64,000 nucleotides of DNA from Melioribacteraceae bacterium (GTDB lineage: Bacteria; Bacteroidota; Ignavibacteria; Ignavibacteriales; Melioribacteraceae), in assembly GCA_022181065.1 (NCBI GenBank), contig BQMY01000116.1, forward strand, positions 1 through 64,000, written 5' to 3'. Under the pieces are notes generated by a model. It saw only the letters and a list, made by a program, of their open reading frames with translations, did no database searches and was not told the DNA's origin. Both the position numbers and the translations under genes were made by a program. Shown here in pieces: positions 22,176-57,058 of the stretch (its first letter is position 1; each line of letters opens with the position of its first letter).

Positions 22176-22347
22176 TTTAAGCCCGTAATTTGATTAAAAA
22201 TCGATTTTTATGTTTTAGCAACACCAAACAGCATTTTTTTTACTGTCTCTGCTCCCCGCATCCCGCCTTCGTCTCCCGAAATACCGGACTTCAGGAATTA
22301 TCGACCTGTTTTGCTGCAGCTCCAAAAAAATTACATACTTTTTAAGG

Positions 22348-22399
22348 TCCTCCTTTTGAAGGAGGTGGATTCCGACAATAGTCGGAAGACGGAGGATGA
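22348..22399 (+). repeat. Dispersed palindromic element, family R1
   Basis: Architecture: TCCTCC, loop, GGAGG, TGGA, hairpin TTCCGAC/GTCGGAA, then ACGGAGGATGA. The 5' pyrimidine strand can pair with either downstream GGAGG. Other copies at 24919, 48271, 48612, 48829, 49129, 49439, 49704 and 56626. Confidence 0.75.
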
Positions 22400-22423
22400 T
22401 TTTATAATTTATATGACTGTTAG

Positions 22424-24918: not shown

Positions 24919-24990
24919 TCATCCTCCCGAATGCTTTCGGGACAGGTTCCCGGAGGTGGATTCCGACACAAGTCGGAAGACGGAGGATGA
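24919..24990 (+). repeat. R1 element with an internal extra hairpin
   Basis: TCATCCTCC at the left end pairs perfectly with GGAGGATGA at the right end. Between them lie a CCCGAA/TTCGGG hairpin, a second GGAGG and TTCCGAC/GTCGGAA. It lies between the convergent DUF429 and TlpA-like genes. Confidence 0.7.
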
Positions 24991-25043
24991 TTTATTTTGA
25001 CTAGACTCTCATCCCCCGTGTATTTCATTACAATTTTCGGTTA

Positions 25044-27742: not shown

Positions 27743-28023
27743 TTATATGGATTTATCATCTGAACTCCCGACCCTTCGACAACGCTGAGGGATCTTTTAC
27801 CAGCTAAAGTGTGTCTGTGGGGTTAAAGAATATTCTTCCCTTCCCGCTATATGGCAAAAGGACTTATATCTTTGTCATACCCGTGCATCCGCCGTTGGCG
27901 GAGGGTATCCAGCTGTTTTGAAAATTTTCGCGAATTATATTAACAGAACTCCCCTTCGATCTACATGTGATTGGTAAGTAACGTCCTGAAGTGACATAGT
28001 TAATTTAAGTATTCTCTCTAAAA

Positions 28024-28062
28024 GTCCTCCCATTTATTAAAGGGGAGGATTTAGGAGGGGTT
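28024..28062 (+). repeat. Dispersed element, family R2
   Basis: TCCTCCC, ATTTATTAAA, GGGGAGGA, TTT, AGGAGGGG, TT. The left strand can pair with either right strand. Related copies at 40393, 48900 and 49211 have TCCTTCCC/GGGAAGGA/AGGATGGG. Confidence 0.65.
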
Positions 28063-28314
28063 GTTTGTGAAACCCTGACATCGAGCGCGATCCGCTACAT
28101 CTAATAAAATGTTCAGGAAGTTTTATCCATTGACTTAAGACTTTCGACCATACGAGGTGTCTGAGTGAAATCGCCTGCCCCGGAAGGCGGGGGTGCGACT
28201 CAACAACTCCTAATAACTACATGCCAGTCAACAATCCTGAAAGCTCTCCGGAAAAAAACACTTTCTTCTTCTACCAATCTGTTCTATAAACATAGTACTC
28301 AGCACCTAAAAAAA

Positions 28315-40358: not shown

Positions 40359-40392
40359 CAGAACTCTCGTTTTGAGCGATTCGCCCTTTAAA

Positions 40393-40431
40393 GTCCTTCC
40401 CTTTGTTAGAGGGAAGGATTTTGGATGGGTT
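40393..40431 (+). repeat. R2 element copy
   Basis: TCCTTCCC, TTTGTTAGA, GGGAAGGA, TTTT, GGATGGGTT between the convergent ftcD and TonB-receptor genes. Confidence 0.6.
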
Positions 40432-40436
40432 CAAAA

Positions 40437-42842
40437 TCAAAACCTTGCTCTCATTGCCAGAATAAAATTCCTCCCCGGCGCGACAAGACCTGAAGAATAA
40501 GTTCTGTACCTTACGTTGGTAAGGTTTTCCACACCCGAAGAAATTGACAATATATCCGAGAGTTGATAATCAGCCTTGAGATTTAACGTAATCCACGCTG
40601 GAGAATACGGATTTCCGTTTTCATCTGCCGCGTAAATGTAATCCTTCGATTTTTCCCCGTCAGGCAAATCTTCAAAACTCACCTCACCGTTATACAATGC
40701 GTACAAATCAATATTCAATTTCTGTAATTTGTAAGTGAGATGTGTCGCTCCGAACCATGGAGCCGCGTGGCGTAGTGGAGAAGTAGAACCATCATCCAGT
40801 TCCTCTTCCCCCTTCTGATAATTGAATTTGGTTGACAAACCAAATCCTTCGGGAAAATCTATACTCAAACCTGCCTGGATTCCCCAAACGGTCGCCTTCG
40901 AGGCATTTTGTATAGCCTGTACCTGGCTTAGTTCACCGTCATACATTATAGAGTCTAGCCCGTTTAGAGTAAAATCTCTTCTCACTAACGCATCTTCCAG
41001 AATAGTATAGTACCCGGTCAGGTCAAACTTCACGGCGTCATTAAATACTTTGGCTATTCCTAGTTCAGTATTATAGGCATACTCTGCCTTCAAATCAGGA
41101 TTAGGAACTACAACCGCACCCGGTTCGCTGTCAAACACTTTTCCAACATCATCTACATTCGGTGATCTGAATCCGGTCGCAAATTGCAGACTAACCGTCC
41201 ACGTTTTTTCAGGATTATAGACGGCGCCCGCGCTTGCTGTTACCGCACCGCTATTCAATTCAGCCTCGGTAAATGGAAACGGGTAGAAAGTATTGTCAAA
41301 CTCGGCATTGAGAATAAAATGATTATATCTCACCCCTGCCGAAAGTGACAAATCTTCTCTTGCGCGAAATATATAATCCGAATAAAACGCGATTGATGTC
41401 CAATCAGCTTTAGGGTATCGTGATGGTCCTTTTTTAGTAATACCGGAAACAATATTTTTATCCTCACCGGTTGAAACAACATCGTTGTAAACATATTCCA
41501 GACCATAATTGAGTGTATGTATATTACCCAATCCCTTCGTGAAGTCAAGATTTACACTATAAGCGTCAACATTCTCAACTCTTTTGAACAACTCTGTACC
41601 CTGAAAATCGCGGTCGTATCGGCTCTCTTCAAAAACCTGATAGGCTAGTCTCAAAGTCAGGTCATCGTACAACACAGAAGGATTATGATGTGTGATCGCA
41701 AGATTGTGCATCATCCATTTTTGAGGTCCATAATACCATTCTGCGCTCCGCGGACTCCCATTTCTGTATCGAATCAGACGGTCATACCTGCTATATTTTG
41801 ATGTTTCCGAATAGAACAATCCGTAAACAAGTTCCCAATCTTTATTTGGGATATACAAAGCCTTCTGCAATAAGTTAAATTGATTATAACCTGTCGAAAC
41901 CTGTAATTGAGGCTCTTCATTGCTGAAAACAAGATCAGTTCCGGACAAAGGTTGAACATATTCGGGTCTGAGATATTCATCCGGACCGTTGGAGCCCATC
42001 ATCAAATTGTCATAATCATTGTATGTAATACTCGTCAGGAGAGCAAACTTCTTCCATCCGATATTGATATTGAAATTCCCTGTCATTTCATTATTTGCTG
42101 TTGAATGCCGCAACGAAGCACTCCCTTTGAGGAAAGCGGAATTTCCCAACGAAAGCTGCGGTCTCAGAGTGTAGAAATTCATAACGCCGCCAATCGCGTC
42201 ACTCCCATACAATATCGAACCGGGACCGAATAACACCTCTGTTCGTTCAATAGAATATGGATCGATCGAGATAACATTTTGTACATTCCCGCTTCGGAAA
42301 ATCGCGTTATTCATTCTTACGCCGTCAACAGCTAGCAGGAGTCTGTTCGTTGCAAATCCGCGGATCATCGGACTCCCGCCCCCCATCTGCGATTTCTGCA
42401 TAAATACTTCACCGGAAATTGTTAACATATCCGCGGCGGTCTGAGGATTCTGCAAAAACACTTCCTTCGGGGCAATTGTCGTAACCTTTACCGGTACATC
42501 ATTCTCCGGCTGACTCCATCTCGTAGCTGAAATCACTACTTGTTCAAGAGCTACATTTGTTGGATTCATCTTCAGAACAAAACCCATATCTTCCAACTCA
42601 TTATAGCTGATATGCAGTGTTTCATATCCAAGCATCTGAATAAGAATATCATCTACTCCCTTAAACGAGCCGATATTAGCCTTCCCGGCGGCATTTGTGA
42701 GAGAAGATAATTTTGGAGACTTTGAATAAATTGTTACGAGTTCAATCGGTGTACCCGATTGAGCATCTTTTATTAATAGTATCTGTCCACTTGCCTGTGA
42801 CACAAAAAACAGCATTGCAAGCAGAAATAACATAGTTCTCAT
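40437..42842 (-). CDS. TonB-dependent receptor, heme/hemoglobin type
   Basis: 801 aa. Signal peptide about 1-19 (ending ASGQ), a carboxypeptidase-like regulatory domain (about 20-110), then a plug (DMLTISGEVFMQKSQMGGG, MIRGFATNRLLLAVDGVRMNNA, ERTEVLFGPGSILYGSDAIGG) and a 22-strand barrel ending in an aromatic residue (AMRARF). The plug resembles the hemoglobin/transferrin/lactoferrin receptor subfamily. Role: TonB-driven uptake of heme or another iron compound; the ligand is inferred. Followed upstream by a small secreted protein gene. Confidence 0.9.
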   Translation of the reverse strand: MRTMLFLLAMLFFVSQASGQILLIKDAQSGTPIELVTIYSKSPKLSSLTNAAGKANIGSFKGVDDILIQMLGYETLHISYNELEDMGFVLKMNPTNVALEQVVISATRWSQPENDVPVKVTTIAPKEVFLQNPQTAADMLTISGEVFMQKSQMGGGSPMIRGFATNRLLLAVDGVRMNNAIFRSGNVQNVISIDPYSIERTEVLFGPGSILYGSDAIGGVMNFYTLRPQLSLGNSAFLKGSASLRHSTANNEMTGNFNINIGWKKFALLTSITYNDYDNLMMGSNGPDEYLRPEYVQPLSGTDLVFSNEEPQLQVSTGYNQFNLLQKALYIPNKDWELVYGLFYSETSKYSRYDRLIRYRNGSPRSAEWYYGPQKWMMHNLAITHHNPSVLYDDLTLRLAYQVFEESRYDRDFQGTELFKRVENVDAYSVNLDFTKGLGNIHTLNYGLEYVYNDVVSTGEDKNIVSGITKKGPSRYPKADWTSIAFYSDYIFRAREDLSLSAGVRYNHFILNAEFDNTFYPFPFTEAELNSGAVTASAGAVYNPEKTWTVSLQFATGFRSPNVDDVGKVFDSEPGAVVVPNPDLKAEYAYNTELGIAKVFNDAVKFDLTGYYTILEDALVRRDFTLNGLDSIMYDGELSQVQAIQNASKATVWGIQAGLSIDFPEGFGLSTKFNYQKGEEELDDGSTSPLRHAAPWFGATHLTYKLQKLNIDLYALYNGEVSFEDLPDGEKSKDYIYAADENGNPYSPAWITLNLKADYQLSDILSISSGVENLTNVRYRTYSSGLVAPGRNFILAMRARF

Positions 42843-42878: not shown

Positions 42879-43406
42879 TTAAACAAGAAAAAGGGCTTTT
42901 GGCGGGGGTATTGATGGCTTTTTGAAATGACTTATCCATGTAAATTCAGGTAAACAATAGGGCTGATCTTTATATTCTGGTCTGTATTCATTTAATTCAC
43001 CGGGAGGATATAATCCCGTTAGCATTAAGTTCAGAATTCTTGAAAAATCCTTGTCGGTTGGATCATTCTCTTTACCGAGCAAAATTCTGATTTTCTGCAC
43101 TATCAGAGTTTCATCGGTATCAGCCCAACAATAATAATGCACCGAGTCCGCGCTTTCATAACTTCGCACTATGTCGTACATTATTCCGGAGAACTCAAAT
43201 TCCTTACTGTGTTTCCACTTTAAAACAGTTTTCGTTTCTTCTTTTGAAAACTCCAGAAATGTTAGTTCTTCATCCGGGAGCCCACGCAATATTGTCCATT
43301 TCGCCACCTTTTTCGCGGTTTTCTGCTGATAATTTAGCATACCGAATGAAATCCAGAATGGCGCTATAAAACTGAACACCAACAATATTGATAATATTTT
43401 GCGCAA
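42879..43406 (-). CDS. Small secreted or membrane-anchored protein of unknown function
   Basis: 175 aa. N-terminal hydrophobic segment (3-22), then an alpha/beta region (TFLEFSKEETKTVLKWKHSKEFEF, YESADSVHYYCWADTDETL) and a Pro-rich end (SIPPPKALFLV). No family recognised. It is 36 bp before the TonB receptor on the same strand, so they are probably co-transcribed; a partner role in uptake is only context inference. Confidence 0.6.
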   Translation of the reverse strand: MRKILSILLVFSFIAPFWISFGMLNYQQKTAKKVAKWTILRGLPDEELTFLEFSKEETKTVLKWKHSKEFEFSGIMYDIVRSYESADSVHYYCWADTDETLIVQKIRILLGKENDPTDKDFSRILNLMLTGLYPPGELNEYRPEYKDQPYCLPEFTWISHFKKPSIPPPKALFLV

Positions 43407-45765: not shown

Positions 45766-48120
45766 ATGAAAAAACTTATAATATTTATCGCTTATTTTTC
45801 TATCGTTTTCACTCTGTCGGCACAAGGCTCCCGCGATCTTGTGGGTAATATAATTAATGAAGTAAATCAGGATACTCTCCTTAAATATGTTGAAGAACTA
45901 TCAGGCGAAGTATCTGTTATAGTCGGAGGTACACAGCAGACTATCGTCTCCCGCCATAAAAATGCTGCCGGCAATATTATCGCGGCTAATTATCTGAAAG
46001 AAAAACTTACCTCTTACGGATACAATACCTACTTTCAGGATTTCAGTTCAACCGGTCGGAATGTTTACGCTGTAAAAACCGGAACTGAGTTTCCCGACCA
46101 GCAATATATGATCTGCGCTCATTACGACGCCATGCCTTCCTCAGGTCCTGCTCCCGGCGCAGATGATAATGGAAGCGGAACAGCTGCTGTTATTGAAGCA
46201 GCCAGAATCCTTAAGGATATGGGTCTTCCTTATACTGTTATCTTCGCGCTTTGGGATGAGGAAGAACAGGGACTTGTTGGAAGCAACTATTACGCTGATA
46301 ACGCGGCTTCCGCGGGCGATAATATTAGAGGTGTCGTAAACCTCGACATGATAGCATGGGAAGAAAATGGTGATAATACTGTACGCATTCACACAAAGGA
46401 TATAGCCCAATCATATAAACTATCTGATAAAATGGTTGAAGCGATCAGCAAATACGATCTTAATCTTACATATTCCATTAAAGACCCCGGTATTACCGCG
46501 AGTGATCACGCATCATTCTGGTCAAATGGTTATAGCGCAATACTCCTTATTGAAGATGACGTAAACGACTTTAACAATTATTACCACACATCAAACGATT
46601 TGATTCAATATTTTGATAATGAATATTTCGTTAATTGTTCCAAACTTGCTATCGCGACTTTATCAACATTCGCGTTGAATCTCGACATTCAGATTATTCA
46701 CGAACCTATGACTTCAATAGAACATTCCAACGATATAATTGTTGAAGCTGATATTGTAAGCGGATTGGAAATCGCGTCAGGCGCGGACGCTCCAAGTCTT
46801 TATTATCGTGCTGATCATGGAGCCGGTTTTAATGATTATACATCCGTTACAGGTCAAAATACTACCGGTAACACATACGAATTCACAATTCCCGGTCAAA
46901 TGCTCGGCACTTTGGTTGAGTACTACATTGCCGCGCAAGATGTTAACGGCGATTTTGTAACCACACTTCCCGAGGGAGGATCAGGTACAAATCCTCCGGG
47001 ATCAATTCCTCCTCCATCAGCATTCCAGTTTTTTGTTGCTCCTTACGATATCGTATTTGAAGATAACTGCGGAAGCATGGGGCATTGGGCTCACACAGGC
47101 TCATGGAATATTACCGATCAATATTGCGTCTCCCAACCTTATTCTCTGACTGATTCTCCTGATGATAATTATCCAGGTTCATACGACGCTTATATGACAA
47201 TGAATGAATCTGTTAGTTTGGCAGATGCTATTGGTGTTGAACTCTCATTCAAACTAAAATATGATATTGAAGATAACTGGGATTATGCCCAGATTGAAAT
47301 CTCAACTAATAATGGAACAACCTGGACACCACTCGAAGGATTATTCACTAATCCGGGAACAGGCTCATTCCAGCCGAATGGTGAACCCCTTTATGACGGC
47401 GTTTCTGATTGGGTAACTGAAAAAATAAGCCTTAACTCCTACATCGGTGATGATATTAAAATTCGCTTCCAGATGAAATCCGACGGATACATCGAAGAAG
47501 ATGGTATCTACATAGACGACTTTATGATAATCAACTACACAATCGTTCCGGTCGAACTTGTCTCGTTCAAAGCGGAAGCTACCGAAGCAGGCGTTATGCT
47601 CAACTGGAAAACCCTCTCCGAGCTTAATAATAAAGGATTCAAAGTATTACGTTCGGAGAATTTTGAAGACTACGTAGCGCTTGATTTTGTCGATGGTAAC
47701 GGTACAACAACTCAGAGTAGCTCCTACACATATTTTGATCAGCTTTCAGGATCAGGCGAATATCAATATAAATTGATTCAGACTGATTTTGATGGTGCTG
47801 AGAAAATATACGGTCCTGTTGAAGTTAACTTTGAAGGTGTAAACAATTACGCGCTTAACCAGAACTATCCAAACCCGTTCAACCCGGGTACGATGATCAA
47901 TTATTCAATTCCGGTAAGCGGAAAAGTTAACATAACTGTGTATGACATCCTTGGAAATAAAGTGGCGACCCTCGTAAACTCACTTTTGGAACAGGGAAGT
48001 TATGAAGTATCATTCAACGCCGGTAACTTATCATCAGGAATGTACATATATACCATAAATGTTCAAGGAGCTGACGGAAGTCATTTCATGGACACACAAA
48101 AAATGATGCTAATGAAGTAA
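45766..48120 (+). CDS. Secreted M28-family zinc aminopeptidase with type IX sorting domain
   Basis: 784 aa. Signal peptide 1-20. M28 domain about 40-310 with zinc ligands His119 and Asp133 (CAHYDAMP, GADDNGSGT), the catalytic WDEEEQG (164-169), NLDM and YYHTSND. An Ig-like domain follows at about 325-400, a jelly-roll/MAM-like domain (430-590) and the Por domain from about 705 (NYPNPFNPGTMINYS). Role: extracellular release of N-terminal amino acids, exported by the type IX system and probably surface-anchored. Confidence 0.92.
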   Translation: MKKLIIFIAYFSIVFTLSAQGSRDLVGNIINEVNQDTLLKYVEELSGEVSVIVGGTQQTIVSRHKNAAGNIIAANYLKEKLTSYGYNTYFQDFSSTGRNVYAVKTGTEFPDQQYMICAHYDAMPSSGPAPGADDNGSGTAAVIEAARILKDMGLPYTVIFALWDEEEQGLVGSNYYADNAASAGDNIRGVVNLDMIAWEENGDNTVRIHTKDIAQSYKLSDKMVEAISKYDLNLTYSIKDPGITASDHASFWSNGYSAILLIEDDVNDFNNYYHTSNDLIQYFDNEYFVNCSKLAIATLSTFALNLDIQIIHEPMTSIEHSNDIIVEADIVSGLEIASGADAPSLYYRADHGAGFNDYTSVTGQNTTGNTYEFTIPGQMLGTLVEYYIAAQDVNGDFVTTLPEGGSGTNPPGSIPPPSAFQFFVAPYDIVFEDNCGSMGHWAHTGSWNITDQYCVSQPYSLTDSPDDNYPGSYDAYMTMNESVSLADAIGVELSFKLKYDIEDNWDYAQIEISTNNGTTWTPLEGLFTNPGTGSFQPNGEPLYDGVSDWVTEKISLNSYIGDDIKIRFQMKSDGYIEEDGIYIDDFMIINYTIVPVELVSFKAEATEAGVMLNWKTLSELNNKGFKVLRSENFEDYVALDFVDGNGTTTQSSSYTYFDQLSGSGEYQYKLIQTDFDGAEKIYGPVEVNFEGVNNYALNQNYPNPFNPGTMINYSIPVSGKVNITVYDILGNKVATLVNSLLEQGSYEVSFNAGNLSSGMYIYTINVQGADGSHFMDTQKMMLMK

Positions 48121-48141: not shown

Positions 48142-48192
48142 GTAAAGACGCCATATGGTTGCTGAGCTTGTCGAAGTAAATGGCGTCTTTAC
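48142..48192. repeat. Long hairpin after the M28 gene
   Basis: GTAAAGACGCCAT and ATGGCGTCTTTAC, perfect 13-bp arms around a loop holding GAGCTTGTCGAAG, a sequence found in another dispersed family. It may also terminate the M28 transcript. Confidence 0.65.
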
Positions 48193-49860
48193 CCAGAAAA
48201 AACACAATTATTTTCGTAGGGGAGGGTCACCGACCCTCCTTTTGCTTGTCACAATCTGTGGATTGTCACGTCCTCCTTTGAAGAAAGTGGATTTCGACGC
48301 CAGTCGAAAGACGGAGGATGACTTTTAAGACCAGCGGATTTGCCAAGGTTAAAAAGTCCTTCCCTTTACTAAAGTTTACAAACCTCAGGTTTGGGAAGTC
48401 CGCCTCAGGCGGATAGGATGGGTTCGTTTAATGTCATGCTGTTTCCGGGGTTTCTCCGCCTTGGGGGACAACGACATTGCTGTTTTTGCAAGGGGCTACT
48501 TCGAGGACCTCAGCAGCCCTTTCCCGACTGCTTCAACAAACAAACATATTTTTTTCGTAGAGGAGGGTCACCGACCCTCCTTTTGCTTGTCACAATCTGT
48601 GGATTGACACGGCCTCCTTCGAAGAAAGTGGATTTCGACGCCAGTCGAAAGACGGAGGATGACTTTTCCGGATATAGCAAAATTCAATCAATCCCTTATT
48701 ACCCCTTCTCCCGAGGCATGGGCTTTTTTATGACGGCTACTTCGAGAACCTCAGCAGCCTTTTCTCGATAATCGCAAATAAAAAAACAAAACCGGTCAAC
48801 AGTTGATAATTTTTAATGTCCTCCTTTGAAGGAGGTGGATTTCGACGCCAGTCGAAAGACGGAGGATGATTTTTAAGTCCAGCAGATTTGCCAAGGTTAA
48901 AAAGTCCTTCCCTTTGATAAAGGGAAGGATTTAGGATGGGTTCGTTTAATGTCATGCTGTTTCCGGGGTTTCTCCGCCTTGGGGGACAACGACATTGCTG
49001 TTTTTGCAAGGGGCTACTTCGAGGACCTCAGCAGCCTTTTCACGACTGCTTCAACAAACAAACATATTTTTTCGTAGGGGAGGGTCACCGACCCTCCTTT
49101 TGCTTGTCACAATCTGTGGATTGACACGTCCTCCTTTGAAGGAGGTGGATTTCGACGCCAGTCGAAAGACGGAGGATGACTTTTAAGTCCAGCAGATTTG
49201 CCAAGGTTAAAAAGTCCTTCCCTTTGATAAAGGGAAGGATTTAGGATGGGTTCGTTTAATGTCATGCTGTTTCCGGGGTTTCTCCGCCTTGGGGGACAAC
49301 GACATTGCTGTTTTTGCAAGGGGCTACTTCGAGGACCTCAGCAGCCTTTTCACGACTGCTTCAACAAACAAACATATTTTTTCGTAGAGGAGGGTCACCG
49401 ACCCTCCTTTTGCTTGTCACAATCTGTGGATTGTCACGTCCTCCTTTGAAGGAGGTGGATTTCGACGCCAGTCGAAAGACGGAGGATGACTTTTTCGGAT
49501 ATAGCAAAATTCAATCATCTCCTTACTAACCTTTGTGCCGGGGCAGAGGTCAAGGGACGGGCAATGTGGGATAGGTTTATTATGACGGCTACTTCGAGGA
49601 CCTCAGCAGCCCTTTCCCGACTGCTTCAACAAACAAACATATTTTTTCGTAGAGGAGGGTCACCGACCCTCCTTTTGCTAGTCACAATCTGTGGATTGTC
49701 ACGTCCTCCTTTGAAGGAGGTGGATTTCGACGACAGTCGAAAGACGGAGGATGACTTTTCCGGATATAGCAAAATTCAATCATCTCCTTACTAACCTTTG
49801 TGCCGGGGCATGGGCTTTTTTATGACGGCTACTTCGAGGACCTCAGCAGCCTTTTCACGA
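48193..49860. repeat. 1.7-kb mosaic tandem array of palindromic elements
   Basis: Gene-free. Recurring parts: GGAGGGTCACCGACCCTCC (48221, 48562, 49079, 49389, 49654), each followed by CACAATCTGTGGATTG, then R1 (48271, 48612, 49129, 49439, 49704; another R1 at 48829), R2 (48900, 49211, a disrupted copy near 48355), a 95-bp block starting GGTTCGTTTAATGTCATGC (48420, 48939, 49250) and CTACTTCGAGGACCTCAGCAG. The unit period is about 310 bp at 49079-49389. Short reading frames across it are judged spurious. Confidence 0.85.
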
Positions 49861-49881
49861 TAATCGTAAATAAAAAAAAAC

Positions 49882-49928
49882 GTAGAGGCGTACCATGTTT
49901 ACCCCGTAAGACGGGGGTGCGCCTCTAC
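49882..49928. repeat. GTAGAGGCG hairpin
   Basis: GTAGAGGCG and CGCCTCTAC enclose an inner CCCGT/ACGGG stem. A separate palindrome type closing the array, before the convergent serine hydrolase gene. Confidence 0.65.
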
Positions 49929-49981: not shown

Positions 49982-51193
49982 TTAATCCATCTCATCAATT
50001 AATCTGTACAACACATCATTGATAACATTTAGATTATTTTCGCCCTCGGCTGAAAACTGCACCTCGGAATTACTCATAAACACAAATCCATTATTTGTTT
50101 TCGGGTTAAAATGAATTTTCGCTACCGTACCCAGATCAGTCCCGGCATGAGAAATTTCATCCCCCTCAAGAAACCAGAAAACACCATGTTTCACCCCTGA
50201 ACCTGTATCGGTGTATAACTTGTTGAATAATAGTTCATATCCTGTATCCGAAAGCAAAGCCTGCTGACTCGTGCCGGCATAACCCTTGATCATTTCTGTC
50301 AGGAATTTGGTTAGATCATTTGTGGTAGTTATAAGTGAACCACTCGCGTACAACGCACATTGATAAAACGGATAAGCACTATCATGATCGAAATACAATT
50401 TGGCATAATTTCCTGTGTTAAAGTTTTCACCATACTCAAAGGAGGTACTGGTCATATCAAGCGGCAGAAATATATTGTCCTTCACAAACTCGCTGTATGG
50501 CATCCCGCTTTTTATCTCTATAAGTAACGCCGCGAGTGAAGCGCCAATGTTGCTGTAACTGTATCCCATGCCCGGCGCATAGTTACTATAATTTGCGGCA
50601 GAATAATAATCACCATTAGAAGCAAGATATTCATACAATATTACACCCGCTGAAGGGAGTTCTTCCCTGCTGACATTCAGCGCATTCAACATCATCAATG
50701 CCGGTTCGCTTTCCATATTTTGGTTCGGCAATATTCTGTAGGTGGCGAAGAAAAAGTTTATATCGTCCACAATACCGGATGTGTGTGTGACAAGATGTTT
50801 AACCCTGATTTCACTTTCGGAGTAGTAGGGATTTACAACTTCAAATGGAAGGATTTCATTAATATTTGTCTCGAGAGTAAAATAATTAAGGTCTATTGCC
50901 TTTGCGATCGCTACACCCAAAACCGCTTTACTCACCGAGGCGACTGATTGTCGGGTATCCCCATCATATTTAAGTCCTGTTTCTACATTGGCATAACCGT
51001 GAAAGCCGGATAACGTTACATTCCCGTCCTTGACAATTGCGTATGTAAACCCCGGTAGAGTGGACCCGCTGTGTTTTTCAGCAAGTTCATCTGATAAACT
51101 TTTAACCTCGGGCGAGGTGCTCTCTTCACTGCACGCGGTGAAGAGAAGAAGTGATAAAAGCAACGTTATTATAAATTTGGTTTGGCGTTTCAT
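49982..51193 (-). CDS. Serine hydrolase lipoprotein (class C beta-lactamase-like)
   Basis: 403 aa. Lipobox LLFTAC with Cys21. Active-site SVSK (Ser86, Lys89), YSYSNIGAS as the YxN motif and SHAGTD in place of the KTG box. Family role: penicillin-binding, D-alanyl-D-alanine peptidase or esterase activity, anchored in an envelope membrane. The real substrate is not predictable, and beta-lactam resistance should not be assumed. Confidence 0.88.
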   Translation of the reverse strand: MKRQTKFIITLLLSLLLFTACSEESTSPEVKSLSDELAEKHSGSTLPGFTYAIVKDGNVTLSGFHGYANVETGLKYDGDTRQSVASVSKAVLGVAIAKAIDLNYFTLETNINEILPFEVVNPYYSESEIRVKHLVTHTSGIVDDINFFFATYRILPNQNMESEPALMMLNALNVSREELPSAGVILYEYLASNGDYYSAANYSNYAPGMGYSYSNIGASLAALLIEIKSGMPYSEFVKDNIFLPLDMTSTSFEYGENFNTGNYAKLYFDHDSAYPFYQCALYASGSLITTTNDLTKFLTEMIKGYAGTSQQALLSDTGYELLFNKLYTDTGSGVKHGVFWFLEGDEISHAGTDLGTVAKIHFNPKTNNGFVFMSNSEVQFSAEGENNLNVINDVLYRLIDEMD

Positions 51194-56593: not shown

Positions 56594-57058
56594 AAGTCTG
56601 TCGACAAAGTCGCTTCTTTTTAAAGTCCTCCTTAGAAGGAGGTGGCTTCCGACGAATGTCGGAAGACGGAGGATGATTTATTCCATTTTTTGTGACTTAC
56701 GGTCATCCCCATGACAAAATCCGCCGTTGGCGGAGTGACTTCCCCCTTTAAACCAGTGCACCGTAGGTGTTAGGAGTCCTGAAAATAAACAAACAGGTTT
56801 TTCAACAATCTCAAGTTCCCTTAAACCGGGAGCTTTTTTACATCGGAAGGGATGCCCTGTAACCATCCCCTCTTAATAATTTAGATATCAGTAAAGAGGG
56901 CATTAGGTTGGTGAGCCCAGTCTGCCTGCCCCGCTCGCGGGGAACCATATATCGTCTTTACCACTTTGCACTAACCACTCAGTACTCAGTACTCAGCACT
57001 AAATTATTTCATAAACCTCATTTGTATAATCCTGAAATTGGTTAACTAAAATAAAAAA
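56594..57058. other. Non-coding stretch rich in repeat fragments
   Basis: No gene. Holds an R1 copy at 56626-56676, a CCGCCGTTGGCGG fragment near 56721, a partial copy of the 5' region motif TTTTTCAACAATCTCAA near 56797, and TACTCAGTACTCAGTACTCAGC near 56977 in pieces. Confidence 0.55.
56626..56676 (+). repeat. R1 element copy
   Basis: TCCTCC, TTAGAA, GGAGG, TGG, hairpin CTTCCGAC/GTCGGAAG, ACGGAGGATGA. Its hairpin has C-G where the 48-49 kb copies have T-A. Confidence 0.7.

Follow-up and report, generated by a model that had tools for sequence, protein, structure and literature searches.

A tandem array of composite intergenic repeats bearing GTAG-tagged REP hairpins in a Melioribacteraceae genome, probably grown by local expansion

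Organization of the repeat array

We analysed a 64,000-nucleotide stretch of DNA from a Melioribacteraceae bacterium, referred to here as the window. Within it, a gene-free tract built of repeats lies between two convergent genes: gene 45766-48120 (+), which encodes a secreted M28-type peptidase with a T9SS tail, and gene 49982-51193 (-), which encodes a beta-lactamase-family protein. A preliminary description of the locus had reported such a tract, and its account of this is borne out by Tandem Repeats Finder, which detected two overlapping repeat stretches scoring 1333, for the 310-bp part, and 943; scores of this size exclude chance as an explanation for the array. Two mechanically called open reading frames inside the array, 48391-48771 and 49486-49794, had no Pfam match, and a protein-coding reading was rejected on that basis. 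CRISPR and integron attC arrays were dropped as identities by inspection alone. The array was unmatched in Rfam at E up to 1 and had no match among plasmid records. A terminator scan returned 2 sites against a mean of 2.7 in shuffled sequences, which is no enrichment, and REP hairpins were not scored as terminators.

Positions 48198-49880 of the window resolve into six tandem units, U1 to U6, all on one strand and measuring 340, 280, 238, 310, 265 and 250 bp, respectively (Table 1). In a typical unit, a GTAG-tagged hairpin is followed by a linker, the repeat R1, a middle segment of type A or type B and then an imperfect palindrome. From U1 to U6, the middle types are A, B, A, A, B, B. Altogether there are five copies of the hairpin, six each of R1 and the palindrome, and three of a block designated GGTTCGTTTAATGTC. 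The unit lengths are uneven because two types of middle exist and because U3 lacks both hairpin and linker. The period near 310 bp that was first ascribed to the array therefore describes the spacing of a single adjacent pair, U3 and U4; elsewhere it gives way to units ranging from 238 to 340 bp.

Two double-foot hairpins bracket the array. The two ends of the interval originally marked out, 48193-49928, correspond to these flanking hairpins. The loop of the left hairpin contains another palindrome, GGTTGCTGAGCTTGTCGAAGTAA, forming a palindrome within a palindrome. Folding was compared with that of shuffled sequences: the tagged hairpin (U1 copy), R1 and R2, a further repeat of the preliminary description, gave z-scores of -3.19, -3.3 and -4.2, whereas the CTACTTCGAGG palindrome folded no better than its shuffles (z -0.16). 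The CTACTTCGAGG palindrome listed earlier is thus a weak one.

Table 1. Coordinates of the array units and their component repeats in the window
Feature	Coordinates	Strand	Remarks
Left bracketing hairpin GTAAAGACGCCAT...ATGGCGTCTTTAC, double-foot REP-like	48142-48192	.	fold z -5.41; pattern match
Right bracketing hairpin GTAGAGGCG...CGCCTCTAC, double-foot REP-like	49882-49928	.	fold z -5.72
Unit U1	48198-48537	+	type A middle, long variant
Unit U2	48538-48817	+	type B middle, array-end tail
Unit U3	48818-49055	+	type A middle, without hairpin and linker
Unit U4	49056-49365	+	type A middle
Unit U5	49366-49630	+	type B middle, longer variant
Unit U6	49631-49880	+	type B middle, array-end tail
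GTAG-tagged REP hairpin, U1	48216-48239	+	exact pattern; fold z -3.19
GTAG-tagged REP hairpin, U2	48557-48580	+	pattern match
GTAG-tagged REP hairpin, U4	49074-49097	+	pattern match
GTAG-tagged REP hairpin, U5	49384-49407	+	pattern match
GTAG-tagged REP hairpin, U6	49649-49672	+	pattern match
R1, two hairpins, U1 copy	48270-48321	+	array copy fold z -3.33
R1, other array copies	48611-48662, 48818-48869, 49128-49179, 49438-49489, 49703-49754	+	
Type A middle, U1	48322-48493	+	putative IS1182-type MITE fragment
Type A middle, other copies	48870-49011, 49180-49321	+	
Type B middle, U2	48663-48734	+	
Type B middle, other copies	49490-49586, 49755-49826	+	
Imperfect palindrome GGCTACTTCGAGGACCTCAGCAGCC, U1	48494-48518	+	
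Imperfect palindrome, other copies	48735-48759, 49012-49036, 49322-49346, 49587-49611, 49827-49851	+	

A GTAG-tagged REP hairpin and a candidate RAYT partner

The GGAGGGTC hairpin is a GTAG-tagged REP, with the GTAG tag standing 5′ of a short stem-loop in all five array copies. The search for REP-associated transposases that the preliminary description proposed proved productive, as described below. The pattern GTAGRGGADGGTCACYGACCHTCC matched the 4.9-Mb genome 42 times with up to 3 mismatches and the reversed-pattern control not once; since two of the places match on both strands, these amount to about 40 distinct places, five of them in the array. This is fewer than the copy number above 100 that is given as usual for REPs in PMC2817692. 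All five array REPs have the GGAGGGTC stem, as do the copies that flank the candidate transposase gene described below; a different stem, GGATGGTC, is commoner in the genome.

Two Y1_Tnp genes were found in the genome. One of them, a RAYT gene at G000:C99:42489-42974, sits on a different contig from the array and is flanked by inverted copies of the hairpin, at 42446-42469 (+) and 43013-43036 (-). Its product scores 27.9 bits against the Pfam family Y1_Tnp, above the cut-off of 23, and 69.8 bits against NF047646, the NCBIfam model of the REP-associated tyrosine transposase, below the cut-off of 80; no solved structure matched it at E up to 0.1. The second Y1_Tnp gene (L063, G000:C82:17614-17955) is flanked on either side by another repeated palindrome, CCCCACGACTGAAGTCATGGGTTAGCC.

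We found relatives of the C99 RAYT in 84 of the 164 genomes examined from the order, its own included (E up to 1e-10). We examined 30 of these loci, chosen from the best matches with at most one per genome. A GTRG-tagged hairpin with a score of at least 9 lay within 350 bp of the gene in 24 loci, on both sides in 15; the remaining 6 had none within that distance. Over all 30 loci, 62 GTRG hairpins fell in the 20.5 kb of near flank, and none in the 44.8 kb more than 700 bp away or in shuffled sequences. The hairpin pattern of the array's own genome was matched in only three of the other 163 genomes (1, 1 and 2 matches, up to 2 mismatches), and on this measure it is nearly private to this genome.

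The surroundings of the REP copies connect the hairpin with the double-foot hairpins that bracket the array. The foot of a double-foot hairpin, CG(C/T)(C/G)T(C/T)TAC, stands 19-25 nt upstream of 14 of the 25 non-array REP copies that we examined, a sample that includes the left RAYT-flanking copy and leaves about 10 further places outside it; the other 11 copies have no such hairpin upstream. In the array, the foot occurs 23 nt upstream of the U1 REP and is absent from the other REPs. The left edge of the array thus looks like the standard genomic setting of this REP.

R1 and the type A middle match parts of a dispersed MITE

The 310-bp unit has at least 73 matches in the genome, array copies included, with 40 of 204 first-look candidates scored. 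The type A middle is 87-88% identical over about 125-130 bp to dispersed copies of a MITE, and 88% identical to C74:12139-12295. In many dispersed copies the middle is paired with R1 in a constant layout, with R1 in the opposite orientation to that in the array. Both GGGGCTGACYAAAAAG-type ends, with up to 4 mismatches, are present in 11 of 18 aligned MITE copies, these 11 spanning 303-435 bp. An IS1182-family element with both MITE-type ends lies at C95:4234-5778 (L158); its ORF scores 293.8 bits against a cut-off of 270, and by eye its sub-terminal sequence resembles the left end of the MITE. R1 and the type A middle are therefore best read, at the level of sequence, as pieces of a 303-435 bp MITE with IS1182-type ends. 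The 95-bp GGTTCGTTTAATGTC block, initially listed as a palindrome family in its own right, is part of the same dispersed MITE. A search of the array for the MITE end pattern found no match, and only internal parts of the MITE are present there. The 8-bp flanks of the MITE copies showed no consistent target-site duplication. The long ORF of the IS1182 copy lacks the first 127 profile positions, so this copy may be inactive.

As the preliminary description had it, R1 recurs elsewhere in the window, at 22335-22403, 24952-24996 and 56608-56684, and so does an R2-like core, which we assume to be the R2 of that description, at 28020-28066 and 40390-40432. Matches to the MITE were found in 31 of 164 genomes, its own included, with 4 candidates scored per genome; in the other genomes it was seen only as pieces, mostly the 43-bp R2 core. 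This core (AGTCCTTCCCTTT..AAAGGGAAGGATTTAGGATGGGTT) also recurs across families of the order independently of the MITE (L054 in G046, L056 in G048, and others).

The loop of the first R1 hairpin has two discrete lengths. Among 57 R1 matches retained after identical contexts were removed, it measures 14-18 nt in 47 and 36-39 nt in 7, the longer form containing a palindromic insert of ~20 nt of one of two kinds; 3 loops could not be measured, and one of these, at window 24927-24948, carries an insert. The loci recorded for this variation are L052, L071, L078, L080, L083, L084 and L186, together with window 24927-24948. Hairpins appear to have been inserted into the hairpin loops of R1.

Tandem expansion of a composite unit

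Several parts of the unit are confined to the array. A query of hairpin plus linker gave five matches in the array and 14 weaker ones elsewhere in the genome, most of which extend over the hairpin but leave out the linker; the linker was not found elsewhere in the genome, the type B middle had no genome match outside the array, and the palindrome had two weak ones. Among 163 further genomes of the order, all from other genera, the array was not found, and the hairpin-linker-R1 segment had no counterpart, the best result being a 26-bp hairpin match in one genome (up to 5 candidates scored per genome). A search for the whole array in 57 relatives recovered fragments only, in 8 of the 57. The gene downstream of the array had one match outside its own genome, at 33% identity, among 78 relatives. 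A parent composite without duplication was not found.

The junctions between parts bear directly on how the array arose. The point where hairpin, linker and R1 meet is identical in each of the five units with a hairpin, and units of the same middle type have the same R1-middle-palindrome junctions. Because the units have these junctions in common, the unit was assembled before it multiplied; independent insertions would not yield them. The preliminary description had left a choice between an expanding unit and a hub at which elements accumulate. A hub that draws independent insertions of several element families would account for several repeat families lying side by side, some of them with relatives elsewhere; however, it does not predict identical junctions in every unit that bears the module pair, or a linker and a type B middle found nowhere else in the genome. 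We consider it extremely improbable: it is contradicted for the repeated modules, although the unit may first have been put together in this way. The notion of an expanding unit stands. We conclude that the array probably arose when a composite intergenic repeat expanded locally in tandem. From its sequence, the composite appears to have been built a single time and then duplicated in tandem, after which the units exchanged sequence.

Comparison of the units suggests an order of events. U3 and U4 agree at 52/52 positions of R1, 141/142 of the middle and 44/44 of the palindrome and tail. U1 and U2 share one R1 variant that sets them apart from U3 to U6, and U2 and U6 have the array-end tail in common. 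Together, these similarities fit a duplicated A-B block with later additions of single units. U1 and U5 are nevertheless identical over the palindrome and tail (44/44) despite their different middles, a pattern that no simple tree accommodates and that implies exchange between units. We infer that, downstream of gene 45766-48120, a REP first came to lie beside a double-foot hairpin, a setting seen at other genomic sites, and that it was then joined by R1, the MITE-derived type A fragment and the palindrome to form the composite, which was duplicated. In the likeliest order, an A-B pair with the end tail would have been duplicated as a block, after which the first hairpin and linker of one copy would have been lost and single units added within that copy, taking A to AA and B to BB. 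The orientation of R1, which differs between the array and the dispersed MITE copies, requires one extra rearrangement.

The copying itself was most likely due to unequal recombination or replication slippage between direct repeats, the most economical mechanism. A RAYT could instead have driven growth, by cutting same-strand REPs to release a single-stranded circle of one unit that reinserts at a REP, with the MITE fragment and the other DNA as passengers. The array does offer five GTAG REPs on the same strand, one per unit except U3; the genome holds a RAYT flanked by the GGAGGGTC hairpin, and it is this stem, and not the commoner GGATGGTC, that all five array REPs carry. Circular intermediates are also mentioned in PMC3733652 as one way in which complex REP arrays might arise. 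On the other hand, U3 has no REP and yet forms a 99% identical pair with U4, homologous exchange predicts the same units, and no excised circle or empty site was seen. We therefore regard RAYT-driven growth as unlikely.

Assemblers collapse repeats more often than they invent them, which argues against the array or its copy number having been made by the assembler. The assembly does comprise 164 contigs, with 99% identity between U3 and U4 over 310 bp; but fixed variants, two types of middle and different tails make most copies distinguishable, and we judge an artefact very unlikely. In an assembly of this kind, the copy number of the near-identical 310-bp units may still be wrong. By analogy with other REP clusters between convergent genes, any effect of the array would likely come from hairpins placed in transcript 3′ ends.

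Comparison with known systems

As a local repeat expansion the array is of an ordinary sort: nothing in it points to a new system, and only the composition of its unit is unusual. It offers a clear case of a REP cluster that would have grown by duplication of a composite and not by repeated insertion, and both likely suppliers of the unit's parts can be named within one genome. It also links the hairpin with a RAYT in a lineage on whose REPs we found little written: among the papers listed, literature searches on REPs and RAYTs in Ignavibacteria gave only unrelated work, those on REPtron, Bacteroid and GTAG terms gave two known surveys, and those on MITE-REP mosaics and nested palindromes gave nothing directly relevant beyond PMC2817692. 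If strains could be compared, the array could help to show whether tandem growth is driven by REP transposases.

The closest parallel is provided by the GTAG REPs, which Di Nocera, De Gregorio and Rocco (2013, PMC3733652) list in Proteobacteria, Cyanobacteria, Chloroflexi and PVC. Tandem repetition of REPs together with DNA beside them has already been described in published REP surveys. The array resembles these clusters in its GTAG tag, short stem-loop, convergent intergenic site and REP-flanked RAYT. It differs in the flanking DNA that it carries, which is a chimera with a putative IS1182-type MITE fragment. That fragment in turn recalls the IS1182-family MITE, whose ends match those of the copy at C95:4234-5778, but it is end-less, and R1 is inverted.

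Double-foot REPs and subclass 2.4 of TnpA-REP are described in PMC6006769. The C99 RAYT shares with this subclass the NHFH and WQ motifs and the presence of long canonical REP and double-foot hairpins beside the gene; it differs in having YIEQNP, not YIxNNP, and would be a candidate member of the subclass. Association of RAYTs with inverted flanking REPs is reported in PMC2817692 and is seen again at the C99 gene. In the same source, the enterobacterial BIMEs are, like the array, mosaic intergenic clusters of REPs and other motifs; the REPs of BIMEs alternate in orientation, whereas all five REPs of the array lie on the + strand.
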